NCBI RefSeq assembly: GCF_014203835.1 | Contig: NZ_JACHJW010000001.1 | Location: 1,178,001 to 1,242,000, forward strand | DNA length: 64,000 nucleotides | From: Micromonospora polyrhachis | GTDB taxonomy: Bacteria; Actinomycetota; Actinomycetes; Mycobacteriales; Micromonosporaceae | Reading direction: 5' to 3' | Shown here: piece after piece, positions 2,446 to 38,222 of the stretch | Layout: each line of letters begins with the position of its first letter | How positions within the stretch are numbered: the first letter of the stretch is position 1 | Program-made: the position numbers and the translations under genes | The notes under the pieces: model-generated | What the model was told of the DNA's origin: nothing | The model's database searches: none | What the model saw: the letters and a program-made list of their open reading frames with translations, nothing else

Positions 2446-3999
2446 TCAGATCCCGTCCCAGAAGGTCAACCGGTGCGTGGTGGCCCGGTCGAACCGGCCT
2501 ACCCGGTCGAGGTCCAGGCCCTGGACGTACGGGTGGTGCCGCCATGTCGGTAGTCGGTGGCCGTTGGGGTTACCCGTGGCGGCGAACCGTGCCCAGTAGC
2601 CGATCATCAGGTCGCCGAGTCGACGCTGCTTGGCGGTGAGCGGGGTCGACTCCCACGACGGGTCGAAGAGGAACGGCAGCTCCGAGCCGTGCGAGGCCAA
2701 GGGTTTCAACTGGTCGTCGGAGTACGGGAAGAGTTGCGGTGCGGTCCGGTCGAGGAACTCGTAGGAGTAGACCGGGACATACCGGGCCAGCAACCGGTCG
2801 GTGTCCCGCGCCGCCCTCGCCCAGTCGAGGTCGCTCATGATGGCGGCAGCGGTCTGGATGGGCACCTCACCGGGCGGATAGGCAGCCAGGACGGCTGGTG
2901 CCCGCTCCCCGAAGATCTGGGTGATGCCATCGACGTACTGGGCGGCGGTGAGCCCCGGAAACAACATCGAGGCGAACATGGTGCCCTCGTCCCGGGTGAT
3001 GCCGGACAGGATCGGCACCCGGTGGAAGCGTCCCTCGGCGAAGACCGTCGCCGGGTCCTCGGGCAGTACGGCGTTGCCGTATCCGGGCAGGGGCAGGGCG
3101 GGCTGTGCGAGGAGTTCCGCGACGGGCTTACTCCTCAGGCAGGCGATGTCCGGGCACGAAAGCTGGCCGGCGATCATCTGCCCGTGTCCCTCGTGCACCG
3201 CGGTCGGCACCCAGAGTGGCACGGCCATGACCTGCGGCAGGTCGTTCTGGCTCCAGCATGGGGAACTCTGGGTGATCGCGCGGTGGAACAGCCCGGCCGC
3301 GCCCGGGGAGACAAGCTGGGCGCAGACCGAGTGTGAGCCCGCCGACTCGCCGGCGAGCGTGACGTTGCCGGGATCACCGCCGAACGCGGCTGCGTTGCGC
3401 TGCACCCACCGCAGCGCCGCCTGCTGGTCCTCCACCCCGAACGCGCCGCTCTCCGGCAGCTCCGGATGGCCGAAGAAACCGAAGATCCCCAGCCGGTAGT
3501 TGACGGTCACCACGACGACGTCACCACGCGTGGCAAGGCGGGTGGCGTCGTAGTCGCTGCCGGCTCCCTTCGTCAGGCTGCCGCCGTGCAGCCAGACCAG
3601 CACCGGCTTGGGGTGGCGGGGTGAGGCACCGCGCGGCGCGGTCACATTCAGGTAGAGGCAATCCTCACTGTCGCTGGCCGGCAGGCCCCAACTGTCGGCC
3701 GTCTGGGCGCACCGAGCGCCGGGCCGGGTCGCATCGCGGATGCCGGTCCACGGCTCGACGGGCTGCGGCGAGCGCCAGCGCAGTTCGCCGACGGGGGCGG
3801 CGGCATAGGGGATGCCCTGGAAGAGCCGATGGTCACCACGTGACATGCCAGCTATCCAGCCCGTGTCGGTACGTACCTTGCCAGAGCCGGCGGGCTTGGC
3901 GGTCGCAGCGGGCTTGGCGGTCGCAGCGGGCTTGGCGGTCGCAGACGCTGGCAGCGCCAGGAGCGCGAAGACGGTCGCGATGGTCGTCAGGAATCGCAT
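2446..3999 (-). CDS. Secreted type-B carboxylesterase, 517 aa
   Basis: The N-terminus is a signal peptide (MRFLTTIATVFALLALPASA) followed by three tandem ATAKPA units and then the catalytic domain. Type-B carboxylesterase marks are clear: the oxyanion segment WLHGGSL, the nucleophile elbow GESAGS, and the late H-G-S-E-L-P segment that carries the catalytic His. Length is usual for the family. It should hydrolyse esters outside the cell; the substrate cannot be read. Its start overlaps the end of the upstream permease gene by 13 bases, so the two are co-transcribed and probably translationally coupled. Antibiotic or lipid ester hydrolysis are both possible. Confidence 0.9.
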   Translation of the reverse strand: MRFLTTIATVFALLALPASATAKPAATAKPAATAKPAGSGKVRTDTGWIAGMSRGDHRLFQGIPYAAAPVGELRWRSPQPVEPWTGIRDATRPGARCAQTADSWGLPASDSEDCLYLNVTAPRGASPRHPKPVLVWLHGGSLTKGAGSDYDATRLATRGDVVVVTVNYRLGIFGFFGHPELPESGAFGVEDQQAALRWVQRNAAAFGGDPGNVTLAGESAGSHSVCAQLVSPGAAGLFHRAITQSSPCWSQNDLPQVMAVPLWVPTAVHEGHGQMIAGQLSCPDIACLRSKPVAELLAQPALPLPGYGNAVLPEDPATVFAEGRFHRVPILSGITRDEGTMFASMLFPGLTAAQYVDGITQIFGERAPAVLAAYPPGEVPIQTAAAIMSDLDWARAARDTDRLLARYVPVYSYEFLDRTAPQLFPYSDDQLKPLASHGSELPFLFDPSWESTPLTAKQRRLGDLMIGYWARFAATGNPNGHRLPTWRHHPYVQGLDLDRVGRFDRATTHRLTFWDGI

Positions 4000-15785: not shown

Positions 15786-15815
15786 GAGTGGCTATTCCAC
15801 GTGGAACAGCCACTC
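15786..15815. repeat. 30-bp dyad with TTCCACGTGGAA core
   Basis: GAGTGGCT and AGCCACTC flank a perfect 12-bp palindrome TTCCACGTGGAA with one unpaired base on each side. It may be an operator or a hairpin; it lies too far (~160 bases) from the ACT gene start to be a simple promoter operator. Confidence 0.65.
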
Positions 15816-15865
15816 ATGCCGCGACAGCGGGTGGGTCTTGTGAGGTGGGGCGGGTGGAGAACGGT

Positions 15866-15944
15866 GGGGCGGGCGGGACAAGCAGGGGACCAGCGGGGCG
15901 GGACCAGCAGGGCGGGACAAGCAGGGTGGGACCAGCGGGGCGGG
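15866..15944. repeat. G-rich short tandem repeat
   Basis: Imperfect copies of GGGCGGGACAAGCA / GGGCGGGACCAGCG alternate about five times and run right up to the stop codon of the cebR-like gene. The plus strand is strongly G-rich with runs of three to four G, so it could form G-quadruplex-like structure. Confidence 0.7.
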
Positions 15945-16991
15945 TCAGGCGGACTCGCGGGGGACGAGGTGGGTGTCGAGCAGCACGTAGGGCGGTTGCT
16001 CCTCCTCGCCCCGGATCCGGGCCACCAACAGCCGCGCCATCTGCCGGCCCATCTCCTCCACCGGTTGGAAGACGGTGGTCAGCGGCGGCTCGGCCTGCCG
16101 GGCGATCGGGGCATCGTCGAAGCCGACAACGGCCACGTCGTCCGGCACCCGTCGCCCCGCCTCCCGTAGTGCCCGCAGCGCGCCAAAGGCCATCAGGTCA
16201 CTGGCGGCGAAGACCGCGTCGAGGTCCGGGCAGCGGGTCAGCAGGTCCCGCATCGCCGCCGTACCGCTGCCCTCACTGAAGTCGCCGAATGCGATCAACT
16301 CGTCGGTGACCGTACGGCCGCTGACCGTCACCGCCTCCTGGTAACCGGTCAGTCGGGCCAGCCCGGCCCCCATGTCCTGCGGCCCGGCGATGGTGGCCAC
16401 CCGGGTCCGCCCCCGCGCGAAGAGGTATTCCACCGCCTGCCGGGCACCCCCGGTGTTGTCCACGTCGACGAAGTGCACCGGCTGGGCACCCGGCCGCAGC
16501 ATCCGGGCCGGCCGTCCGCCCAGCACGGTGGGCAGGCCGCGTTCGGCGAGCAGGGTCGGCAGCGGATCGGCGTCGTGCAGTGACAGCAGCAGCACCCCGT
16601 CGATGTGCTGGCTGGTCAGGTGGTGCTCGACGCGTTCCCGTTCGGCCGGCGACTGGGCCATGGCCAGCCACAGCTGCATCGGCGTCTCCAGCAGCCCGGA
16701 GCTGATGCCGCGCACGATGCCGGCGAAGAACGGCTCGGTGAAGACGCGGTCCCCCGACTCGGAGACCACCAGGGCCACCGAGTCCGTACGCTGGGTCACC
16801 AGCGCTCGGGCCGCACGGTTCGGCACATAGCCCAACTCCTCGATGGCCTGCTGCACGGCCGCCCGGGCCTCCGGGCTCACCTGCGGCGATCCGTTGACGA
16901 CTCGGGACACGGTGCCCCGGCCGACCCCGGCGCGGGCGGCGACCGCATCGAGGGTGGGACGCCCGAGCGAGCGGGTGCGCTGGGTTGTCAT
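15945..16991 (-). CDS. cebR: LacI-family repressor, CebR-like, 348 aa
   Basis: The N-terminal LacI helix-turn-helix is clear (PTLDAVAARAGVGRGTVSRVVNGSPQVS, residues ~12-40), with the hinge helix VPNRAARALV, then a periplasmic-binding-like effector domain (~60-340) ending in LLDTHLVPRESA. It lies downstream of the sugar operon in the same direction. In Streptomyces CebR represses cebEFG-bglC by binding TGGGAGCGCTCCCA and is released by cellobiose. Two near-identical sites lie upstream of the binding-protein gene here. Name by analogy of locus and operator; the effector is not proven. A hairpin separates it from bglC. Confidence 0.85.
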   Translation of the reverse strand: MTTQRTRSLGRPTLDAVAARAGVGRGTVSRVVNGSPQVSPEARAAVQQAIEELGYVPNRAARALVTQRTDSVALVVSESGDRVFTEPFFAGIVRGISSGLLETPMQLWLAMAQSPAERERVEHHLTSQHIDGVLLLSLHDADPLPTLLAERGLPTVLGGRPARMLRPGAQPVHFVDVDNTGGARQAVEYLFARGRTRVATIAGPQDMGAGLARLTGYQEAVTVSGRTVTDELIAFGDFSEGSGTAAMRDLLTRCPDLDAVFAASDLMAFGALRALREAGRRVPDDVAVVGFDDAPIARQAEPPLTTVFQPVEEMGRQMARLLVARIRGEEEQPPYVLLDTHLVPRESA

Positions 16992-17011
16992 CGGTTGCTC
17001 CTCCGACGTCC

Positions 17012-17054
17012 GGCAGCCGGCACCGACCCGAGTCTCGGACCGGCACCGGCTGCC
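17012..17054 (-). terminator. Hairpin between bglC-like and cebR-like genes
   Basis: GGCAGCCGG (17012-17020) pairs with CCGGCTGCC (17046-17054), and an inner CCGAG/CTCGG stem extends it. It follows the end of the glucosidase gene by ~22 bases and would reduce read-through into the repressor gene. Confidence 0.6.
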
Positions 17055-17076
17055 CTGCTTGCTGACCGGCTTCGCC

Positions 17077-18533
<1,457 letters not shown>

Positions 18534-27201: not shown

Positions 27202-28002
27202 ATGAACAAGGTAACTTCCGCTGACGGCACCACCGTCGCCGCCGCACACTCAGGGGACGGTCCGGCCGTCGTCCTGGTGGGCGGTGCCCTCCAGCACCGG
27301 GCGATCGACCCGAGTACGCAGCAACTGGTCGCGCTGCTCGCCCCGGACTTCACCGTCTGGCACTACGAACGTCGGGGGCGGGGCGACAGCGGCGACACCC
27401 TGCCGTACGCGGTCGACCGGGAGATCGAGGACCTCGCCGCGGTGATCGCGGCGGCCGGCGGCTCGGCGGCCGTCTACGGGATGTCCTCCGGCGCGGCGCT
27501 CGCCCTGCGGGCCGCCGCCAGCGGTTTGCCGATCACCCGCCTGGCGCTCTACGAGCCTCCGCTCATCGTCGACGAGAGCCGGCCCCCGCTGCCGGCCGAC
27601 TACCTGCCCCGGCTCGCCGCGCTGCCGGCGGCCGGCCGCCGGGGCGACGCGGTCGCGCTGTTCATGACCGATGCGGTGGGCGTCCCCGCCGAGGAGGTCG
27701 CCGGAATGCGCCAGGCACCGGTCTGGTCGGCGTTCGAGGCAGTGGCGCACACGCTGGCCTACGACGGTGCCGTGATGGGCGACACCATGTCGGGTCAGCC
27801 ACTGCCGACCCAGTGGGCGACCTCGGTCACCGTGCCCACACTGGTCATCGACGGTGGGGCGAGCGAGGGGTGGGCGCGGACCTCGGTGGCGGAGTTGGCG
27901 GAGCTGCTGCCGGCGGGGCAGCGGCGCAGCCTGGACGGTCAGACGCACGCGGTGGACCCGGCGGTCCTCGCTCCGGTGCTGGCGGAGTTCCTGCGCGGCT
28001 GA
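27202..28002 (+). CDS. Alpha/beta hydrolase, 266 aa
   Basis: The product begins MNKVTSADGTTVAAAHSGDG; ATG 27202 is preceded by CAGGGAA, and an in-frame ATG at 27169 would add 11 residues. The fold marks are VVLVGGALQHR (oxyanion region), YERRGRGDSGD, nucleophile elbow YGMSSGAAL (Ser), late Asp in TLVIDGGAS and a terminal His in DGQTHAVDP. It follows the MFS exporter by 44 bases in the same direction, so it is probably in the ECF42 regulon. Substrate unknown; detoxification of the compound exported next door is a guess. Confidence 0.88.
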   Translation: MNKVTSADGTTVAAAHSGDGPAVVLVGGALQHRAIDPSTQQLVALLAPDFTVWHYERRGRGDSGDTLPYAVDREIEDLAAVIAAAGGSAAVYGMSSGAALALRAAASGLPITRLALYEPPLIVDESRPPLPADYLPRLAALPAAGRRGDAVALFMTDAVGVPAEEVAGMRQAPVWSAFEAVAHTLAYDGAVMGDTMSGQPLPTQWATSVTVPTLVIDGGASEGWARTSVAELAELLPAGQRRSLDGQTHAVDPAVLAPVLAEFLRG

Positions 28003-28172
28003 ACCCGCCGGCCGGGGCGGGCCGGACGGTGGCCCAGCCCGGCCCCGCCAGCGGGCCGCCAGGCTCGGCGAGCGGGCCGGCACCGCGAGTCACTTGGCGG
28101 GCTGTCGTACCGGTGGGGCAGGATGCAGGGCGTGTGCCGTGACCTGACGCCGACCGCGACCGGAGTGACCCG

Positions 28173-29927
28173 ATGATCGCCGACGAACCGGGAGGGCCGG
28201 GCGAGGAGGTCGGCAAGGTGCTCGGCACCGCCGACGCCACCCCACTCCAGTTCTGGACCGCGGTCACCCCGGGTAACTACCTGCAACTCGACGACGTGGT
28301 GGTCACCCGCCGTGACCTGCCCGATCGGGAGCCGGTCACCATCGCCGGGGTGGTGACCCAGGTCCGGGCCCGACACGAGGGGGCCCAGTTCGACTCGGAC
28401 GTCTTCGCCATCGCCGACGGCACGCTGCCGGCGATGGTGCAGGAGGCCGCCGAGATCACCACCACCCGGGTGGACCCGGAGTTCTACGTACCGCCCGCCC
28501 CGGGTGCGCCGGTCTACCGGGCCGAGGGCGACGCCCGGGCGCGGGCGCTGCACTTCGACCGGATGGAGCGGCGGATCCCGATGGGCACCGGCCGGGACGG
28601 GGTGCCGGTCTACCTCAACGCCGACTTCCTCGACGGCACCCGGGGCGCGCACGTCTCCATCTCCGGCATCTCCGGGGTGGCCACCAAGACCAGTTTCGCC
28701 ACCTTTCTGCTCTACTCGGTCTTCCGCTCCGGACAACTCGGCCCCGACGGGATCAACTCGAAGGCGCTGATCTTCAACGTCAAGGGTGAGGACCTGCTCT
28801 TCCTCGACCATCCCAACACCCGGCTGGACGCGACGACCACGGCGGCGTACGCGAAACTCGGCCTGGCCGCCGGGGCCTTCCCGGACGTCCGGGTCTACGC
28901 CCCGCCCCGGGCCGGCGACGCCTCCGGCACGCCCGACGTGAGCAGCCGGCCCGCCGGGGTGGACAGCTTCTACTGGACCCTGAGCGAGTTCTGCGCCGAC
29001 CGGCTGCTGCCGTACGTCTTCGCCGACGCCGACGACGAACGCCAGCAGTACACGATGGTGGTGCACTCGGTCACCGCGCACCTGGCCCGCTACGCCCAAC
29101 CGGCCGACGGTGGGGTGAGCATCGACGGGGTCCGCCTCGGCTCCTACCCCGACCTGGTGGACCACATCGTCGAGCAGCTCACCGACGAGGAGACCCGCTC
29201 CGACTGGGCCGGCAGCGCGATCAACACCGGCACGGTCAACGCCTTCGCCCGCCGGCTGATCGGCAGCAAGCGGGACCTGGCCCGGCTGATCCGGGGCGAC
29301 CTGGCCACCCGCCGGCCGCACCGGATCAACACCGACGAGAGCGCCCAGGTCACCGTCGTCGACCTGCACAACCTGCCGGACCGGGCACAGCGCTTCGTGG
29401 TCGGCGTCACCCTCAAGACCGAGTTCGAGAACAAGGAGAAGAAGGGCGCCAAGCCGCTGCTCTTCGTCGTACTCGACGAGCTGAACAAGTACGCCCCGCG
29501 CGACGGCTCCTCCCCGATCAAGGAGGTGCTACTGGACATCGCCGAACGGGGCCGTTCACTCGGGGTGATCCTGATCGGCGCGCAGCAGACCGCCAGCGAG
29601 GTCGAGCGGCGGATCGTCACCAACTCGGCGATCCGGGTGGTCGGCCGGCTCGACCCGGCCGAGGCGTCCCGACCGGAGTACGGCTTCCTGCCGCCGGCCC
29701 AGCGGCAACGCGCGCTGCTGGCCAAACCCGGCACGATGTTCGTCAACCAGCCGGACATCCCGGTGCCGTTGTGCCTGGAGTTCCCCTTCCCGGCCTGGGC
29801 GACCCGGGTCTCCGAGGCCGGTCCGGCCCCGTCGGGGACGCTGCGTTCGATCACCCAGGCCGCCGACCCGTTCGCGGTGGTCGGTGCCCGGTCCGGCGCG
29901 CTCACCGACGACGACATCCCGTTCTGA
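28173..29927 (+). CDS. herA: HerA-like DNA-translocating ATPase (HAS-barrel + DUF87), 584 aa
   Basis: The N-terminal ~130 residues look like a HAS barrel (TPGNYLQLDDVVVT, TIAGVVTQVRARHEG), followed by a FtsK/HerA-type ATPase. The P-loop is GISGVATKT (165-173), unusual because the residue before the Lys is Thr, not Gly. Walker B is LFVVLDELNKYAPRDG (Asp435-Glu436), and VILIGAQQTASEVERRIVTNSAIRVVGR holds the sensor Gln and a candidate Arg finger. HerA forms a hexamer that threads DNA and works with the nuclease NurA and Mre11-Rad50 in resecting DNA ends. The next three genes encode just those partners. ATG 28173 follows GGAG. Confidence 0.85.
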   Translation: MIADEPGGPGEEVGKVLGTADATPLQFWTAVTPGNYLQLDDVVVTRRDLPDREPVTIAGVVTQVRARHEGAQFDSDVFAIADGTLPAMVQEAAEITTTRVDPEFYVPPAPGAPVYRAEGDARARALHFDRMERRIPMGTGRDGVPVYLNADFLDGTRGAHVSISGISGVATKTSFATFLLYSVFRSGQLGPDGINSKALIFNVKGEDLLFLDHPNTRLDATTTAAYAKLGLAAGAFPDVRVYAPPRAGDASGTPDVSSRPAGVDSFYWTLSEFCADRLLPYVFADADDERQQYTMVVHSVTAHLARYAQPADGGVSIDGVRLGSYPDLVDHIVEQLTDEETRSDWAGSAINTGTVNAFARRLIGSKRDLARLIRGDLATRRPHRINTDESAQVTVVDLHNLPDRAQRFVVGVTLKTEFENKEKKGAKPLLFVVLDELNKYAPRDGSSPIKEVLLDIAERGRSLGVILIGAQQTASEVERRIVTNSAIRVVGRLDPAEASRPEYGFLPPAQRQRALLAKPGTMFVNQPDIPVPLCLEFPFPAWATRVSEAGPAPSGTLRSITQAADPFAVVGARSGALTDDDIPF

Positions 29928-29939
29928 TCGGGGCAGCTC

Positions 29940-31085
29940 ATGAAGATCCTGCACACCTCCGACTGGCACGTCGGCAAGGTCCTCAAGGGACAATCCCGGC
30001 TCCGGGAGCACGTCGACGTGTTGGCCCAGGTGGTCGAGATCGCCCGCGCCGAACGCCCGGACCTGGTCGTCGTCGCCGGTGACCTCTACGACACGGCGGC
30101 ACCCACCCCGGATGCCACCCGGCTGGTCACCCGGGCGCTCTCCGCGCTGCGCAACACCGGGGCGCAGGTGGTGGCGATCGGCGGCAACCACGACAACGGG
30201 GCCGCCCTGGACGCGCTGCGCCCCTGGGCCGACGCGGCCGGGGTGGCGCTGCGCGGCACCGTCCGGGAGACCGCCGCCGAGCACATCGTCGACGGCGAGA
30301 CCGCCGACGGCGAGCGGTGGCGGATCGTCGCCCTGCCGTTCCTGTCCCAGCGGTACGCGGTCCGCGCGGTCGAGATGTACGAGCTGACCGCCGCCGAGGC
30401 GGTGCAGACCTACGCCGATCACATGAAACGGCTGATCGGACGGCTCGCCGAGGACTTCTCCGCCCCCGACCGCGTGCACCTGTTCACCGCCCATCTGACC
30501 GTGGTGGGTGCCCGGCTCGGCGGGGGCGAGCGGGAGGCGCACACGGTGATGAACTACGCCGTACCGGCCTCGGTCTTCCCCACCAACACGCACTACGTGG
30601 CGCTCGGCCACCTGCACCGCGCCCAGCAGGTGCTCGGCCCGTGCCCGATCCGCTACAGCGGCAGTCCGCTCGCCGTCGACTTCGGCGAGGAGGAGAACAC
30701 CCCGTCGGTCACCATCGTCGAGGTCACCGCCACCACCACCGCCAAGGTACGCGAGGTGCCGGTCACCGTCGGCACGCCACTGCGTACCGTCCGGGGCACC
30801 CTCGACGAGCTGGCCGCCATCGACGACTCGGACGCCTGGCTGCGGGTGTACGTCCGGGAGACGCCCCGCGCCGGGCTGCGCGAGGAGGTGCAGGAACTGC
30901 TCCCCCGGGCCCTGGAGGTACGCGTCGACCCGGAACTGCTGGCCGCCGCCGGGCCCCCACGCACCGCCCAGCGGGCCGGCCGCTCGCCCCGCGACCTGTT
31001 CGGCGACTACCTGACCAGCCGGGGCCACACCGACGACGACGTACGTGACCTGTTCCACCAGCTCCTGGAGGAGGTGGAGAAGTAG
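29940..31085 (+). CDS. sbcD: SbcD/Mre11-type exonuclease, 381 aa
   Basis: This is a metallophosphoesterase with all five motifs visible: DWH (8-10), GDLYD (Asp48), GNHD (83-85), the FTAHLT His, and GHLH (223-226). The C-terminal ~110 residues form the cap that contacts SbcC. SbcD/Mre11 cuts DNA ends and hairpins with Mn2+. It begins 12 bases after herA and its stop overlaps the GTG of sbcC by one base, so the three genes are tightly coupled. The product is slightly shorter than E. coli SbcD (400 aa). Confidence 0.95.
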   Translation: MKILHTSDWHVGKVLKGQSRLREHVDVLAQVVEIARAERPDLVVVAGDLYDTAAPTPDATRLVTRALSALRNTGAQVVAIGGNHDNGAALDALRPWADAAGVALRGTVRETAAEHIVDGETADGERWRIVALPFLSQRYAVRAVEMYELTAAEAVQTYADHMKRLIGRLAEDFSAPDRVHLFTAHLTVVGARLGGGEREAHTVMNYAVPASVFPTNTHYVALGHLHRAQQVLGPCPIRYSGSPLAVDFGEEENTPSVTIVEVTATTTAKVREVPVTVGTPLRTVRGTLDELAAIDDSDAWLRVYVRETPRAGLREEVQELLPRALEVRVDPELLAAAGPPRTAQRAGRSPRDLFGDYLTSRGHTDDDVRDLFHQLLEEVEK

Positions 31086-33559
31086 TGCGCCCCCTGCGGC
31101 TCGACATGTCCGGGTTCACCGTCTTCCGCGACGACACCACGGTCGACTTCACCGACGCGGACTTCTTCGCCCTGGTCGGCCCGACCGGCTCGGGCAAGTC
31201 GACCGTGTTGGACGCGATCTGCTTCGCCCTCTACGGCACGGTGCCCCGCTGGGGCGGTGCCCGGGGCATCGCCAACGCGCTGGCACCGTCGGCGACCGAG
31301 GCCCGGGTCCGGCTGGTGTTCGAGTCGGCCGGTGCCCGCTATGTGGCGACCCGGGTGATCCGGCGCGACGGGCGGGGCAACGTCAAGACCGGCAACGCCG
31401 GTCTGCAACTCATGCCCGCCGGCTTCGACGTGACCAAACTGGACACCGGGATGAGCCCGGACGACCTGGGTGAGGTGATCGCCGGCACCCCGGCCGAGAT
31501 GGAGCAGGCGGTACTCGACGCGGTCGGGCTGCCGTACGAGCAGTTCACCAGTTGCGTGGTGCTGCCGCAGGGGCAGTTCGCCGACTTCCTGCACGCCAAG
31601 CCGGCGGCCCGGCAGGAGATCCTGGTCAACCTGCTCGGGTTGGGCGTCTACGAGAAGGTCCAGAAGCAGGCCACCGCCCGGGCCACCGAGGCCGAGGCGC
31701 GGGTCACCGCCGTGGACCGGCTGCTGGGCGGGCTGACCGGGGTGGACAACGAGGCTCTGGCTGCGGCGGAGGCACAGGTCACCGCGATGCATACCCTCGC
31801 CGCTGCCGTCGAGGACGCCGTACCGGAGCTGCACCGGGCACAGCGGACGGCGGCCGAGGCGACGGCCGGGCTGACCGCCCTGGACGCCGAGATCGCCGAA
31901 CTGGACGCGGTTCGCCCCCCGGCCGGGGTGGACGCCGTCGCCCGGGCGGTGGCGGTGGCCCGGGGCGAGATCGCCGACACGTCCGCCGCCGTCGCGCTGG
32001 CCGAGGAGCGGGAGGAGAAGGTCCGGGGCGAGCTGGCCGGGGCCGGCGATCCGGCCGCGCTGCGGCTGCTGCTGCGGGCGCACACCGACCGGGACCGGCT
32101 GGCCGGCGAGGCGGACACCCTGCGGACCGGGCTGGTCACCGCCGAGGCCGAGCACACCCGGGCGGTCGAGGCGCTCGGGCAGGCCCGGACCAAGGCCGAC
32201 CGGGCCACCGATGCGTTGGAGGAGGCCCGCCGGGCCTACCAGGAGGCACAGACCGCCGACCGGGCCGCCGCGCTGCGCGCCCAGCTCACCGCCGGAGACG
32301 ACTGCCCGGTCTGCACCCAGCCGGTGCACACCGTGCCCGCCGTACCGGCCGGAGCAGCGGTGACCGCCGCGGAGGCCACCGGCAAGGCGGCCCGGGCCAC
32401 CGCCGACGCCGCCGCCCGACTGGTCGCCGAACGGGACGCCGCCGCCCGGGAACTGCAACGCGCTTTGGACCGGGCCCGGGACCGGCACGACCAGCTCGAC
32501 GCCCGGCTGGCCGACCTGGATGCCCAACTGGCCGACTCCCCCGGGTCGGCGGCACTGGAACGGGAGTTGGCGGCGGTCTCCGCGTTGCAGCGCGACCTCG
32601 ACGAGGCGGGTACGGCGGTGCGGGCGGCCCGGGAGTCCGCCCGGCGGGCCCGGGACGGCTTCGACACCGCCGAGGACCGGCTCCGCGCGGCGTGGCGGGA
32701 CTTCGACACCGCCCGGGACCGGGTGGCCCGGCTGGGTCCGCCCGCCGCCGACCGGGACGACGTGGCGGCGGCCTGGGCCGCGCTCTGCGACTGGGCCACG
32801 GTGCAGGTGCTGCGCCGCCGGGCCGACCGGGTCGACGTGGCCGGGGCGGTCACCGAGGCGCATGCCGCCGCCGAGGCGGCCCGAGATCGGATCGCCGGGC
32901 TCTTCACCGCCGCCGGACTGGCTCCCGACGACGACCCCGCACGCGGCGCGGCGGTGGCGGTGGAACGCGCCGAGGCCGAGCAGCGGCGGCTGACCGAACG
33001 CCGCGACCAGGCCCGACAGTTGACCGAGGAGCGGGCTGGGCACGAGCACGAGGCTCGGGTCGCCAAAACCCTCGCCGGGCACCTGCGGGCCAACAACTTC
33101 GAGCGGTGGCTGTTGGCCGAGGCGCTCGACCTGCTGGTCGAGGGGGCGTCGGGGATCCTGCGGGAGCTTTCCGCCGGGCAATACGAACTGGCCCACGACA
33201 AGGGCGAGTTCTTCGTGGTCGACCACCACGACGCGGGGCTGCGCCGGGCGGTGCGGACCCTCTCCGGCGGGGAGACGTTCCAGGCGTCGCTCTCCCTTGC
33301 GCTGGCCCTGTCGGAGCAGTTGGCCGGTATGTCCACCACCTCGGCCAGCCTGGAGTCGATCGTGCTCGACGAGGGGTTCGGCACGCTGGACGCGGCCACC
33401 CTGGACACGGTGGCGGCGACGTTGGAGAGTCTGGCCGCCCGGGGTGACCGGATGGTGGGCGTGGTGACCCACGTACCGGCCCTGGCCGAACGGGTGCCGG
33501 TCCGGTTCGAGGTACGCAAGGATGCCCGCACGGCCCACATCGAACGCGCTGGCCTATAG
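31085..33559 (+). CDS. sbcC: SbcC/Rad50-type ATPase, 824 aa
   Basis: The P-loop VGPTGSGKST is near residue 33. Two long Ala/Arg/Glu-rich coiled-coil arms are separated by a zinc hook CPVC (407-410) almost exactly in the middle. The C-terminal half has the ABC signature LSGGETF (~726) and Walker B VLDEGFGTLD (Asp762). SbcC/Rad50 tethers DNA ends and gates the SbcD nuclease. At 824 residues it is shorter than E. coli SbcC (1048), mostly in the coils. GTG start 31085. Co-transcribed with herA, sbcD and the NurA-like gene. Confidence 0.95.
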   Translation: MRPLRLDMSGFTVFRDDTTVDFTDADFFALVGPTGSGKSTVLDAICFALYGTVPRWGGARGIANALAPSATEARVRLVFESAGARYVATRVIRRDGRGNVKTGNAGLQLMPAGFDVTKLDTGMSPDDLGEVIAGTPAEMEQAVLDAVGLPYEQFTSCVVLPQGQFADFLHAKPAARQEILVNLLGLGVYEKVQKQATARATEAEARVTAVDRLLGGLTGVDNEALAAAEAQVTAMHTLAAAVEDAVPELHRAQRTAAEATAGLTALDAEIAELDAVRPPAGVDAVARAVAVARGEIADTSAAVALAEEREEKVRGELAGAGDPAALRLLLRAHTDRDRLAGEADTLRTGLVTAEAEHTRAVEALGQARTKADRATDALEEARRAYQEAQTADRAAALRAQLTAGDDCPVCTQPVHTVPAVPAGAAVTAAEATGKAARATADAAARLVAERDAAARELQRALDRARDRHDQLDARLADLDAQLADSPGSAALERELAAVSALQRDLDEAGTAVRAARESARRARDGFDTAEDRLRAAWRDFDTARDRVARLGPPAADRDDVAAAWAALCDWATVQVLRRRADRVDVAGAVTEAHAAAEAARDRIAGLFTAAGLAPDDDPARGAAVAVERAEAEQRRLTERRDQARQLTEERAGHEHEARVAKTLAGHLRANNFERWLLAEALDLLVEGASGILRELSAGQYELAHDKGEFFVVDHHDAGLRRAVRTLSGGETFQASLSLALALSEQLAGMSTTSASLESIVLDEGFGTLDAATLDTVAATLESLAARGDRMVGVVTHVPALAERVPVRFEVRKDARTAHIERAGL

Positions 33560-33576
33560 GGCTACCAGGAGGCATT

Positions 33577-34542
33577 GTGACCCGCTGGCATGTGGACGGC
33601 TGGAACCCGGCCTACGGCACGTCGTTCGACCAGGGCGAGGCCGCTGGTGGCCCCACCACCGAGAGCAGCGCACAGGTCGACACCGACGTCGAGCTGAAGT
33701 CCGATCAGTGGCGTCCGCTGTCGGCCCCGGCCGGGCTGCTCCCGCCACCGGTGGTGCTGCTCGTCGACGGGGTACGTCGCATCGACGCGGGACTGTGGAG
33801 CCGGGAGTCGGACGGAACTTCGTACCCGGGGATCGCCGCCTCGTACGCGGCCGGTGTGGTCCGCTGTGACCTGGCCCGGGGGGCGGCCGAGCTGGTGACC
33901 CGCCGGGTCGACCGGGGGTTGTTCACGGCGAGCCAGGAGGCTCCGGAGCTGATCGCCGGCACGGTCCGTTACCGGGTGCACCGGGTCGGCACCAGCGACG
34001 CGGCAAAGCTCAGCCAGACCGTGCAGGGGCCGCTGACCGAGCTGGAGGTGGAGGTCTCCACCGAGGCCCGCCGGGGCACGGTGGGTGACGACGATCTGCT
34101 CATCGTGGACGGGCCGCTACGGCGCCGGCGCAACCTGCCGCGCACCCTGGGCTACGTCAAGACACAGCAGGGAAAATACCTGTCGGCACAGCTCGCGGCG
34201 GTGGTGACCGCGCTGGAGCCGGGCCAGCGCTGCCCGGTGTTCCGGGTCGGTACGGCCTGGGGCGGCTACTCGTGGTATTTGCGGCTGCCCGGCCCGTCCG
34301 GTGCACCCTGGGCGGGCATCGTCCGCGTCGAGTGTTCCACCGAGCTGGAGGTGGCCGAGGCGATCGCCCTGGCCGATCTGTCCCTGGTGACGCTGCCGCC
34401 GTTCGCCTCCACCTCGTACAAGGATCCTCGGGCCCCGCAGAACCTGATTCCGATCGCCGGGCTGGAGCGCCGACTGCGCAGTCTGCTCGGCGACGCCCGC
34501 CTGCTGCACCGCGCGCTGACCATCGGCGCCGCCCGGCGTTGA
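33577..34542 (+). CDS. nurA: NurA-like nuclease, 321 aa
   Basis: GTG 33577 has a perfect AGGAGG upstream and lies 17 bases after sbcC. The pattern fits the NurA nuclease fold: a hydrophobic strand ending in Asp64-Gly (VVLLVDGVRRIDAG), a second strand LLIVDGPLR (Asp178) followed by LGYVKTQQGKYL, a strand GIVRVECSTELE with Glu, and a C-terminal helix with LHRAL carrying a His. NurA proteins use Asp/Glu residues and a C-terminal His/Tyr with Mn2+. The position next to herA-sbcD-sbcC supports the assignment strongly. Sequence similarity alone would be weak, so automatic annotation may call it hypothetical. Confidence 0.65.
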   Translation: MTRWHVDGWNPAYGTSFDQGEAAGGPTTESSAQVDTDVELKSDQWRPLSAPAGLLPPPVVLLVDGVRRIDAGLWSRESDGTSYPGIAASYAAGVVRCDLARGAAELVTRRVDRGLFTASQEAPELIAGTVRYRVHRVGTSDAAKLSQTVQGPLTELEVEVSTEARRGTVGDDDLLIVDGPLRRRRNLPRTLGYVKTQQGKYLSAQLAAVVTALEPGQRCPVFRVGTAWGGYSWYLRLPGPSGAPWAGIVRVECSTELEVAEAIALADLSLVTLPPFASTSYKDPRAPQNLIPIAGLERRLRSLLGDARLLHRALTIGAARR

Positions 34543-34543
34543 T

Positions 34544-34567
34544 GTGGGGGAAGGACCCCTTCCTCAC
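34544..34567. terminator. Hairpin between convergent nurA-like and rtcB genes
   Basis: GGAAGG/CCTTCC with flanking G/C pairs forms a short stem between the two stop codons. It overlaps the rtcB stop and resembles the core of the hairpin at 7596-7650. Confidence 0.5.
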
Positions 34568-36105
34568 CCCTTGACCGTCAGGATCGGTCGGAGTTCGGCG
34601 ACCGGCTGGGCAGCTTCCGCCCGGCTCAGGCTGCCCACGACCGGTCCGACCTCCTTGTACGCCCATGGTGCTTCCTGTTTCAGGTCGCGACGCCACGCAT
34701 CGATGATGTCGCGGCGGCCCGCCACCGTCGGGTCCCGATGGTTGAGCGGAGTCACCACCCGGAACTCCCGAAGGAAGGCGTCCAGCTCGGCGTCGCTACC
34801 CCGGGCGGCCACGCCTCGCGGAACGCTGCGGCCGGCACCGTGGCAGGCGCTGGCCAGCGCCCGGGGGTTGCCCAGCCCCCGGAGCAGGAAGCTGGGTGCG
34901 CCCATCGACCCGGGTACGATCACCGGCTCGCCCCACAATCGGCCCGGTTCCGATCCGTCGTCACCGGGTCCACCGGCCGGGGTGGCTCCCTTGCGGTGCA
35001 GCACCGCGCCGTCCTCGCCCGGCCACAGCAGGTTGTGCGGGGCGTCGTAGATCAACTGCGAGCGCAGCTCACCGGCGATGCTGGCGAGTCCGGCGCGCAT
35101 CATCAGCGACAGGAAGAACCGATTGCCGATGGCGAAGTTCGCCGCGTTGGCGAGGGCGGTGAGGTAGCGCTCCCGGGCTGGCGCGCTGCGCTCGTCGAGC
35201 AGGATCGGCAAAATCCGGTTACGGGGCATCGGCACGGTACGGGGCCATACCGCCCGGGCCTGGTCCTGCCCGGTGGCGTTGGCCTGGTGCCCCAGGGACA
35301 GCGAGCCGCTGTGCACCATCGACACCACCCGGCCGGGGGCCAACCCCCAGGCGTACGCCGTCGGTCCATCGTGGATGGCGGAGACGTACTGTAGCTCGGC
35401 GAAGTGGTTGCCGCCGCCGACGCTGCCGATGATGCTGTCGAAGCTCGTGCCGCCGCCGCTGGTGATCCAGTCACGGAAACCGTCGGCGGAGTCGACCGGA
35501 TAGCCGGCGGCGTGCAGCCGGTCGCCCACCTCGATGTCCGATGGGACGACCTGACGCCAGGCCCCGTCGGCACCGGCCGGAACCCCCTCGGCGAGCAGTC
35601 CGGGCAGCCCGTCGCGCAGCAGGCCCGCACGCTGGTCAGCGGTCAGCCCGATTCGGCGTCCGCCCTCGAAGAACAGGTGGCGCAGGTGGCGTTCCAGCCG
35701 GTCCAGGTGCGGACGGACCTCCTCGATGGTCAACGAGGTGACCTCGACCCGCATCCCGCAGTTGATGTCGTTGCCGACCGCCTGTGGGACCAGCGCGCCG
35801 ACGGTACGCAGCACCGTGCCGATCGGGATGCCGGCTCCCTTGTGGAAGTCGGGGGTGCAGACGACCCGATCGATACGAGGTGTGACGTCGCTGGCCGAGC
35901 CGCCCCTGGCGAGTGCGGCCAGGGTGTCGGCGGTCTCCAGCACGGTCAACAGTTCGTCGACCGCCGCGGTTTCGATCGGGACGTCGGGCCCGGCGCAGAT
36001 CTCGACCGGGATGTTCGCCGGATTGGGGAGGGTGAGCCAGGAGTCGTCGGTACGAATCAGGCGCGGATCGAGCCGCTTGGAAACGGACACAGGGGTGCCT
36101 TTCAT
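34564..36105 (-). CDS. rtcB: RtcB-type RNA-splicing ligase, 513 aa
   Basis: I start it at ATG 36105; GTG 36090 with AAAGG upstream is a good alternative. RtcB marks are complete: TPDFHKGAGIPIGTV, the metal-binding Cys in GNDINCGMRVE, GGGNHFAELQ, the HSGS segment, and the guanylation His in CHGAGRSV. RtcB joins RNA 2',3'-cyclic phosphate ends to 5'-OH ends using GTP and Mn2+, for repair of cleaved tRNA or rRNA. An archease partner gene is not seen. It converges with the HerA-NurA operon and is followed upstream by a tandem repeat. Confidence 0.93.
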   Translation of the reverse strand: MKGTPVSVSKRLDPRLIRTDDSWLTLPNPANIPVEICAGPDVPIETAAVDELLTVLETADTLAALARGGSASDVTPRIDRVVCTPDFHKGAGIPIGTVLRTVGALVPQAVGNDINCGMRVEVTSLTIEEVRPHLDRLERHLRHLFFEGGRRIGLTADQRAGLLRDGLPGLLAEGVPAGADGAWRQVVPSDIEVGDRLHAAGYPVDSADGFRDWITSGGGTSFDSIIGSVGGGNHFAELQYVSAIHDGPTAYAWGLAPGRVVSMVHSGSLSLGHQANATGQDQARAVWPRTVPMPRNRILPILLDERSAPARERYLTALANAANFAIGNRFFLSLMMRAGLASIAGELRSQLIYDAPHNLLWPGEDGAVLHRKGATPAGGPGDDGSEPGRLWGEPVIVPGSMGAPSFLLRGLGNPRALASACHGAGRSVPRGVAARGSDAELDAFLREFRVVTPLNHRDPTVAGRRDIIDAWRRDLKQEAPWAYKEVGPVVGSLSRAEAAQPVAELRPILTVKG

Positions 36106-36183
36106 GGCTGCCGAGAGGTGGGTACGAACGAGCGACACGTGCACCGGCACGGGTCGACAAGACGGGCCGACAAAACCGGTCGA

Positions 36184-36367: not shown

Positions 36368-37225
36368 GTGGCACGTAAACGGGGGTCTGACCGGGTGGTC
36401 GGCGAGGTCGACACGGGTCTGGCCGAACTGGTGCCCGACCCGGACCGGCCGCACTCGTTCACGCTGCTGCTGGACGGGACCCCGCAGTCGCACGTCGACC
36501 TGTCCGACCCGACGCACCTGGAGTTCGAGTACGTCCGCCGGATCGCCGCCGCCATCGATCTGCTCGCCCCACCCGGTCGGCCGGTGCGCGTACTGCACCT
36601 GGGCGGTGGGGCGCTGACCCTGCCCCGGTACGTCGCGGCCACCCGCCCCGGCTCCAGTCAGCGAGTCGTCGAGATCGACGGTCGGTTGGTCGAATTGGTT
36701 CGACGGGAGCTGCCGTGGTCGGCGCAGGCCCGGATCCGGGTCCGGGTGGGCGATGCACGCCAGGTGCTCACCGAGGCCCGCGACGGGGCGTACGACCTGA
36801 TCGTGGCCGACGTCTTCGCGGGTGCCCGTACCCCGGCGTCGCTGACCTCGGTGGAGTTCGCCGGTGAGGTGGCCCGGGTGCTGGCCCCCGACGGCGGCTA
36901 CCTGGCAAACCTGGCCGACGGGCCGCCGCTGCGGTACGCCCGCGCGCAGGTCGCCACGGCCCGTGCGGTGTTGCCCCGGGCCTGCCTGATCGCTGACGCC
37001 CCGGTGCTGCGCGGCCGGCGCTACGGCAACCTGGTGCTGGTCGCCAGCCGGGTCGAGCCACCGGTTCCGGAGCTGACCCGGCGGGCGGCGGGCGACTGGT
37101 TCCCGGGCCGGGTGTTGGCCGGCGAGGACCTGGACCGGTTCGTTGGCGGGGCCCCGGTGGTGGTCGACGCCTCCGCCCAACCCTCGACCCCACCACCACC
37201 CGGAGCGTTCGGCGTCACCCGTTGA
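36368..37225 (+). CDS. Spermidine-synthase-like methyltransferase-fold protein, 285 aa
   Basis: A Rossmann domain of the spermidine synthase family is visible: the nucleotide-binding VRVLHLGGGALTLPRYVA, the acidic strand end VVEIDGRLVEL, and YDLIVADVFAGARTP. The N-terminal beta part (SFTLLLDGTPQSHVDLSDPTHLEFEY) replaces the usual tetramer domain. Actinobacteria have several such stand-alone proteins whose product is often not spermidine. GTG start at 36368. The next gene follows 76 bases later in the same direction. Confidence 0.85.
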   Translation: MARKRGSDRVVGEVDTGLAELVPDPDRPHSFTLLLDGTPQSHVDLSDPTHLEFEYVRRIAAAIDLLAPPGRPVRVLHLGGGALTLPRYVAATRPGSSQRVVEIDGRLVELVRRELPWSAQARIRVRVGDARQVLTEARDGAYDLIVADVFAGARTPASLTSVEFAGEVARVLAPDGGYLANLADGPPLRYARAQVATARAVLPRACLIADAPVLRGRRYGNLVLVASRVEPPVPELTRRAAGDWFPGRVLAGEDLDRFVGGAPVVVDASAQPSTPPPPGAFGVTR

Positions 37226-37301
37226 CCGCGCCGCGCACTACCGGCGGTCGCCACTCCCACCCAGCCCCGCTGATCGACTGTGGGCGTGACAGAGTGGGCC
37301 G

Positions 37302-38222
37302 GTGACCGAGACCGAGCCGGTGCTGGACCGGACGTTGCGTCCGCCGGACGGCTACCGGTTCGCCGCTTCGGTCCGGCTGTTGGCGATGGGCGCGCACGAT
37401 CCGTGTGCCCGATTCGTCGACGGGGTGTTCTGGTGGGCCACCCGAACGCCGGACGGCCCCGGGACGTTGGCCCTGCGGCGAACCGGTGGGGATCTGGTCG
37501 CGGCCGGATACGGGCCGGGCGCGGCCTGGGTGGTCGAGCATGCCGACGCGGTGGCCGGGCTGCGCGACGACGTGTCGGGGTTCGCGGAGTTGGCCGCCGG
37601 CCATCCGGTGGTCGCCCGTCTGGCCCGCGACCATCGGGGGCTTCGGCTGCCCGCCACCGGCCAGGTCTTCCCCCGGCTGCTGCGGGCGATCTGCGAGCAG
37701 AAGGTCACCGGCACGGAGGCGTTCCGGGCGTACGCGGCGACGGTCCGGCACTTCGGCCGTCCCGCTCCCGGACCGGTACGGTCGCTGTGGGCACCGCCGA
37801 AGCCGGCCGACGTGGCGGCAGCGCCGTACTGGGTGTTCCATCCGTTCGGTCTGGAGCAGCGACGGGCCGACACCCTGCGGCGGGCGGCGGCGGTCGCCGG
37901 CCGGCTGGACGCCTGCACCACCTCGGCCGAGGCGACTCGGCGGATGACGGCGATCCCGGGTATCGGCCGATGGACGGCTGCGGAGGTGGTCCGGGTCGCG
38001 TTCGCCGACGCGGACGCGGTGAGTGTCGGTGACTTCCACGTCCCGAACATGGTGGCCTGGTCCCTGGCCGGCGAGGCCCGGGCGGACGACGCGCGGATGC
38101 TCGGGTTGCTGGAGCCGTTCCGGGGGCATCGTGGCCGGGTCTGCGTACTGCTGGCGGCTGCTGGGCGATATGCGCCTGCCTTTGGGCCTCGAATGCCATT
38201 ACGGTCGTTCGCCCGTTTCTGA
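37302..38222 (+). CDS. DNA-3-methyladenine glycosylase-like, HhH-GPD (AlkA type), 306 aa
   Basis: The AlkA-type N-terminal beta domain (~1-120) precedes the helical HhH-GPD domain. FPRLLRAICEQKVTGTEAFRAY is the family-specific helix, and MTAIPGIGRWTAAEVVRVAF the helix-hairpin-helix, followed by the catalytic Asp in SVGDFHVPN. It removes alkylated bases from DNA in base excision repair. The C-terminus (FRGHRGRVCVLLAAAGRYAP) is typical. It lacks the N-terminal Ada domain sometimes fused in actinobacteria. GTG start at 37302. Confidence 0.93.
   Translation: MTETEPVLDRTLRPPDGYRFAASVRLLAMGAHDPCARFVDGVFWWATRTPDGPGTLALRRTGGDLVAAGYGPGAAWVVEHADAVAGLRDDVSGFAELAAGHPVVARLARDHRGLRLPATGQVFPRLLRAICEQKVTGTEAFRAYAATVRHFGRPAPGPVRSLWAPPKPADVAAAPYWVFHPFGLEQRRADTLRRAAAVAGRLDACTTSAEATRRMTAIPGIGRWTAAEVVRVAFADADAVSVGDFHVPNMVAWSLAGEARADDARMLGLLEPFRGHRGRVCVLLAAAGRYAPAFGPRMPLRSFARF

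Follow-up and report, generated by a model that had tools for sequence, protein, structure and literature searches.

The question raised by this locus is whether four consecutive genes of Micromonospora polyrhachis encode a machine for resecting broken DNA ends, of the kind known from archaea. The genes lie within a stretch of 64 000 nucleotides that was analysed as a whole (the window), which belongs to one 7.15-Mb contig. They are herA (28173-29927), encoding a bacterial-type HerA hexameric DNA translocase with a HAS barrel (584 amino acids, aa); sbcD (29940-31085), encoding the Mre11 homologue (381 aa); sbcC (31085-33559), encoding the Rad50 homologue (824 aa); and nurA (33577-34542), encoding a bacterial-type NurA nuclease (321 aa). 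All four are co-directional on the forward strand. A first-pass annotation had described them as a tight operon of archaeal type, and the open reading frame list returned the same coordinates with the same gaps of 12, -1 and 17 bases, the start of sbcC sharing one base with the stop of sbcD. In textbook accounts bacterial resection is the work of RecBCD, AddAB or AdnAB. The data presented here suggest that the four-gene operon is very probably a DNA-break end-resection unit, in which HerA-NurA acts with SbcCD.

The 321-aa product matched NurA of Deinococcus radiodurans (7f6d_H) at E 3.4e-19 in a single-sequence phmmer search. A profile of 30 NurA relatives (A1), drawn from one gene-order lineage only, matched the same chain at E 1.6e-42 over profile positions 33-310 and Thermotoga maritima NurA (1zup_A) at E 2.9e-10. 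These two bacterial NurA chains were the only ones matched, and no archaeal NurA chain was retrieved with the profile at E 10. Against the Pfam NurA model the protein scored 15.1 bits, the cut-off being 21, it gave no match in an NCBIfam scan, and a Pfam NurA search across its own genome returned nothing. The low score reflects the reach of the Pfam model, which finds 20 of the 30 relatives at E ≤0.1, and is not a biological criterion. As nurA falls under the standard family cut-offs, it probably escapes automatic annotation and is listed as hypothetical, as the first-pass annotation had anticipated.

An AlphaFold2 model of NurA, generated from a 28-row alignment, had a mean pLDDT of 75.5 and a pTM of 0.77, with residues 11-31 and 278-290 as its low-confidence parts; scores of the four remaining models ran from 61.6 down to 40.8. 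A Foldseek search with the model gave E 9.7e-17. Among the chains listed, the model was closest to 7f6d_G (Z 21.6, root-mean-square deviation (rmsd) 3.3, 282 residues aligned), tied with 1zup_A (Z 20.7, rmsd 3.2, 262 aligned), and Sulfolobus NurA 2ygk_A was more distant (Z 13.1, rmsd 4.4, 221 aligned). The structure predicted for 33577-34542 has the RNase-H-like fold of NurA, and sequence and model together identify the protein as a bacterial-type NurA.

In Deinococcus NurA the substitutions D53A, K201A and R309A each abolish activity (PMC9960219). With a 20-residue tag in the deposited chain allowed for, the profile A1 alignment matches these residues to D64, K195 and R285, each kept in 106 of 106 NurA rows. 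Conservation was counted over 106 rows for NurA and 96 for HerA, the window included, after exclusion of rows with an internal stop, less than 80% of the length or fewer than 100 bits. D178 and E157 were present in all 106 NurA rows and E252 in 105, so that the two Asp strands (D64 and D178) and the Glu strand from which NurA had originally been recognised are borne out. The C-terminal His named with them is not: His stands at position 311 in 24 of the 106 rows, the 30 rows of A1 share no invariant His, and a catalytic role for it was ruled out, the conserved C-terminal catalytic match being R285. NurA W9 corresponds to W8 of the Deinococcus protein by position only, not by tool alignment. In one family of the same class (f19), NurA from three aligned loci (L104, L106 and L107) carries an extra stretch of up to tens of residues between the E157 helix and the second Asp strand, and NurA from three others (L105, L108 and L109) is likewise longer than usual.

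HerA matched D. radiodurans HerA (DrHerA; 7f6d_B) at E 2.2e-148 in two stretches, residues 10-308 and 317-549 (phmmer). The next-best chain lay at E 0.0054, and 9x1l_A, from Thermococcus according to its structure title and the sole listed chain that could be placed as archaeal, at E 0.45. Residues K172, T173, D207, D435, E436, R443 and R500 correspond to K175, T176, D220, D487, E488, R495 and R552 of DrHerA, which contact ATP or DNA (PMC9960219). Walker A K172/T173 was kept in 96 of 96 rows, Walker B D435/E436 in 95, and the pore arginines R443 in 91 and R500 in 89, all seven falling between 89 and 96. With homology to DrHerA spanning residues 10-549 and both Walker motifs kept, the earlier description of a HAS-barrel HerA-like ATPase holds.

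SbcD scored 177.4 bits against the bacterial model TIGR00619 (cut-off 77.65), compared with 53 bits for the best archaeal Mre11 model, and has the five phosphoesterase motifs. SbcC scored 268.5 bits against TIGR00618, below the cut-off of 478.5, and was above cut-off for Pfam AAA_23 and SbcC_Walker_B; it carries a Walker A motif at residue 32, the zinc hook CPVC already noted in the first pass at 407, LSGGE at 726 and Walker B at 759. One SbcD match and one SbcC match were found in the genome, both of them the window copies, and therefore the four-gene unit supplies the SbcCD of this genome.

The distribution of the unit was assessed in 150 genomes of the family (Micromonosporaceae), 296 of its class and 396 of its phylum (Actinomycetota), together with a collection of named genomes. 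NurA was retained in 147 of the 150 family genomes, in contrast with the initial framing of the operon as an oddity of one bacterium. The three genomes without a match contain herA and sbcD on a contig that ends inside sbcC, and true absence of nurA was rejected in each. Two further family nurA genes contain one internal TGA each (G298:C1:5159407-5160330 and G407:C1:2181838-2182776). Across the class, NurA was found in 19 of 296 genomes at E 1e-3 and HerA in 17 at E 1e-60, all 17 being among the 19. Of the two remaining NurA matches in the class, one is a NurA fragment of 119 codons with an internal stop (L111), for which the other three genes were not found in the 12 kb fetched, nor HerA in the genome (G284) at E 1e-60; this looks like joint loss. 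The other (L112), at E 1.8e-4, had no recognisable copy of any of the four genes next to it. In the phylum at least 75 of 396 genomes have NurA, a lower bound because profile A1 was built from one gene-order lineage. At least 590 stretches of the named genomes encode a NurA relative; among the matches listed the closest came from Micromonospora and Actinoplanes, at up to ~71% identity, and the best 80 all fall in genera which we take to belong to Micromonosporaceae.

Linkage in the family was examined in 41 loci, one from every genus with a hit apart from that of the window; for one genus G338 was used, its first member having an internal TGA. In 36 of the 41 loci the genes stand as herA-sbcD-sbcC-nurA on one strand, the order of the window, which bears out the expectation that nurA would be found beside herA-sbcDC in the family. 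Gaps were ≤150 bases in 28 of these loci, ≤500 in four and larger in four. The 36 include a single-contig genome (L057, G296) whose nurA (2998-3977) is in two pieces through an internal stop or frame change, where a sequencing error or a recent loss is possible. Of the remaining five, three are cut by contig edges, one has herA ~4.6 kb further away (L066) and one shows none in the 1.8 kb available (L096). All four genes were together in 74 of 80 named loci, the other six being truncated where their contigs begin; since some genomes occur in both the family set and the named set, the two are not independent. Outside the family, the four genes were adjacent and co-directional in 14 of 16 class loci. 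Outside the class, 53 of 73 NurA hits were fetched (the other 20 being mostly fragments or repeat members of a sampled genus) and 46 of the 53 loci contained all four genes; of the other seven, three are short or cut, two lack herA nearby, one has only nurA and one is a distant match. This adjacency is far above chance, and its extent through the phylum is stronger evidence than linkage among close relatives. In 22 of 55 loci nurA has a candidate start with a four-base overlap of the sbcC stop, and the four proteins have correlated pairwise distances (r 0.73 to 0.95).

Two gene orders were found among the 46 complete loci outside the class, herA-sbcD-sbcC-nurA in 17 and nurA-herA-sbcD-sbcC in 29. 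A single branch, with an SH-aLRT support of 100, separates the two orders in an unrooted tree of HerA+SbcD from 71 loci (LG+G4, quick method). Two family codes (f47 and f112) occur on both sides of it, and for that reason transfer of the unit between lineages, or the existence of two old versions, is likely. In Thermus nurA precedes hepA (herA) (PMC5448004), and Oceanithermus presumably shares the arrangement, which is that of 29 of the 53 loci outside the class. If so, nurA changed place once in the phylum, from the first to the last position in the operon, a direction that rests on the comparison with Oceanithermus. Two individual loci differ: L291 (G502) is a distant nurA-herA-sbcD-like set (43, 157 and 52 bits), possibly a separate related system, and L242 (G547) has herA (15789-17325) in two pieces in an otherwise complete unit, representing a broken gene or an assembly error.

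In the window an alpha/beta hydrolase gene and a major facilitator superfamily (MFS) transporter gene lie upstream of herA on the forward strand, and downstream of nurA lies rtcB (34564-36150), convergent on the opposite strand. Within the flanks examined, the hydrolase, MFS, sigma-factor and rtcB neighbours recurred in 0 of 57 and 0 of 80 loci, the latter being the named set, and rtcB looks inserted in the window. Scans of 27900-34800 for consensus promoters and terminators found none, which is uninformative in a GC-rich actinobacterium.

The first-pass annotation had set the unit against RecBCD or AdnAB, as machinery that most bacteria use instead. That opposition does not apply here, as the genome also encodes AdnAB, seen as two adjacent proteins with UvrD and PDDEXK_1 domains (L120). 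The second of these matches chain B of a structure, which we take to be mycobacterial AdnAB, at E 1.2e-242. A search with a piece of AdnB gave at least 300 bits in 20 of 20 family genomes, that of the window included, and in nine of nine class genomes; replacement of AdnAB by HerA-NurA was rejected for all of these. Of 24 deeper phylum genomes nine scored at least 150 bits and 15 scored ~105 bits or less, the latter being close to what AdnA and a UvrD-like protein of the window's own genome score with the same piece (75-83 bits). These 15 genomes may have a divergent AdnAB, AddAB or RecBCD.

A mechanism for the unit can be proposed by analogy with Deinococcus, where HerA threads duplex DNA to a NurA dimer and the 5' strand is cut during translocation (PMC9960219). 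A hexameric HerA ring would pump duplex DNA from the broken end into a NurA dimer docked at the HAS-barrel face; NurA would split the duplex and cut the 5' strand as translocation proceeds, leaving a 3' tail for RecA. SbcCD would most likely act ahead of them, clearing ends that are blocked, bound by protein or folded into hairpins and passing the end to HerA-NurA. In favour of this mechanism stand homology over the full length to the solved Deinococcus complex, intact catalytic residues, the joint occurrence of HerA and NurA in the class sample, and the linkage to sbcDC in loci from beyond the class. The conserved linkage suggests that SbcCD is connected physically or functionally with HerA-NurA, and the operon may divide the labour of resection with AdnAB. 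More tentatively, and as a possibility that we would not yet call probable, the unit could represent in Actinomycetota an old bacterial equivalent of the Mre11-Rad50-HerA-NurA resection machine of archaea, with SbcCD and HerA-NurA forming one assembly, working beside AdnAB in the family and providing the main long-range resection in the deep lineages with no close AdnB match (15 of the 24 genomes tested).

Several observations weigh against a resection unit built on the Deinococcus pattern. Of the acidic DrHerA residues that contact NurA (D78, E80 and D81) one of three is kept in HerA of the window (D76), and of the basic contacts in motif 3 of NurA one of four (K282), itself present in 70 of 106 rows. 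As these ionic contacts are mostly not kept, the HerA-NurA interface has probably drifted, to judge from the alignments. The acidic residues also align poorly in other bacteria (PMC9960219) and are therefore not family-defining. Gaps exceed 500 bases in four of the 41 family loci and in 11 of the 53 outside the class (11 of the 46 complete ones), two loci have no HerA within ~5 kb (L254 and L255), and one (L253) has NurA alone with 9 kb of upstream sequence. Vertical descent by itself would produce the correlated protein distances. Downstream of the operon, at 36368-38222, a spermidine-synthase-like gene and the one following it recur in 46 and 61 of the 80 named loci, and therefore the linkage among close relatives is partly general synteny. 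Finally, Deinococcus and Thermus that have lost nurA or herA are described as modestly altered in their resistance to radiation and mitomycin C, or even as more resistant (PMC9960219).

The linkage could instead reflect two independent modules under a shared promoter, SbcCD performing its usual cleavage of hairpin and blocked ends and HerA-NurA serving another process, such as DNA transfer or the processing of forks, with no cooperation between them. In Deinococcus HerA-NurA is encoded apart from sbcCD (PMC8708640) and HerA pairs with RecJ also (PMC4663267), and the 2.5-4.6 kb insertions in four loci (L061, L066, L078 and L090) sit between HerA and SbcD. However, the four genes are linked in 46 of 53 phylum-wide loci in two orders, with nurA either after sbcC or before herA, so that the set is kept though the order changes, and we consider independence of the modules unlikely. 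A recent acquisition of the operon from archaea has in its favour a gene set which is that of the archaeal mre11 operon (PMC4351679), and the co-directional arrangement is the same. The sequences are not of archaeal type as had been proposed: HerA, NurA and SbcD are closest to bacterial families, and the HerA+SbcD tree, in which no archaeal rows were included, places the window among its own family. Recent acquisition is scarcely credible; an ancient transfer into bacteria is compatible with these data.

A role in defence against phages or plasmids, with a HerA-nuclease pair that destroys foreign DNA and SbcCD possibly recognising its ends, is suggested by the presence of HerA-like ATPases in defence systems (PADLOC HerA models; PMC11291478). 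HerA gave weak PADLOC matches (mads_8 at 4.6e-9; the best HerA-named model at 3.6e-6), and the NurA model is structurally related to the TdpAB nuclease (8wfd_G: Z 12.7, rmsd 4.5, 230 aligned). The TdpAB system (PDB 8WFD) thus has a NurA-fold nuclease like the window, but at a lower structural similarity than the NurA proteins of Deinococcus and Thermotoga; its role is defence, its TdpA is presumably a HerA-like ATPase, and we know of no SbcCD in it. Defence genes are usually patchy in their spread, and all but three of the 150 family genomes have the unit, the exceptions being due to contig ends; moreover, NurA has no PADLOC match at E 1, and the operon holds the only SbcCD found in the genome. 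Although the patchy occurrence in the wider class (19 of 296) does not weigh against a defence function, such a function appears distinctly improbable overall.

The known system nearest to the proposed resection unit is HerA-NurA of D. radiodurans (PDB 7F6D; PMC9960219), which shares with the window the protein types along their length, the catalytic and ATPase residues and the pairing of HerA with NurA. It differs in that the window pair is clustered with sbcCD and the Deinococcus pair is not (PMC8708640), in that most mapped ionic interface residues are not kept, and in that the genome of the window also has AdnAB. In Oceanithermus profundus sbcD and sbcC lie downstream of herA as hepA(herA)-sbcD-sbcC (PMC5448004), as in the window, but the window and its near relatives have herA-sbcD-sbcC-nurA and Oceanithermus belongs to another phylum. 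The herA-mre11-rad50-nurA operon of Sulfolobus islandicus unites the same four kinds of protein, and all four genes are reported there as essential (PMC4351679); the window proteins are bacterial in type, and archaeal NurA was matched by fold only (2ygk_A).

In a review, NurA and HerA are stated to occur in Actinobacteria and the Deinococcus pair is said not to cluster with Mre11-Rad50 homologues (PMC8708640); another report describes bacterial NurA-HerA as limited to a few bacteria, for example Deinococcus-Thermus (PMC9960219). Any connection of sbcCD with HerA-NurA was left open in a Deinococcus study (PMC4663267). No description of the actinobacterial four-gene unit was found in the open-licence literature, in so far as its text was available, nor any literature on NurA in Micromonospora. 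A 2004 comparative-genomics paper on FtsK-HerA may describe actinobacterial cases. Bacterial HerA-NurA and the Oceanithermus sbcDC linkage are already in print, and to this known kind the four-gene unit adds a large new branch. Relative to the accessible open-licence literature, its phylum-wide occurrence and its retention throughout the family are apparently new, as are the presence of AdnAB beside it and the one change in gene order.

Being retained across a family and present in many deep lineages of the phylum, the unit would mean that bacteria equipped with AdnAB possess a second resection machine, one in which SbcCD has a processive partner. The conserved operon makes the link between SbcCD and HerA-NurA directly testable in a bacterium.

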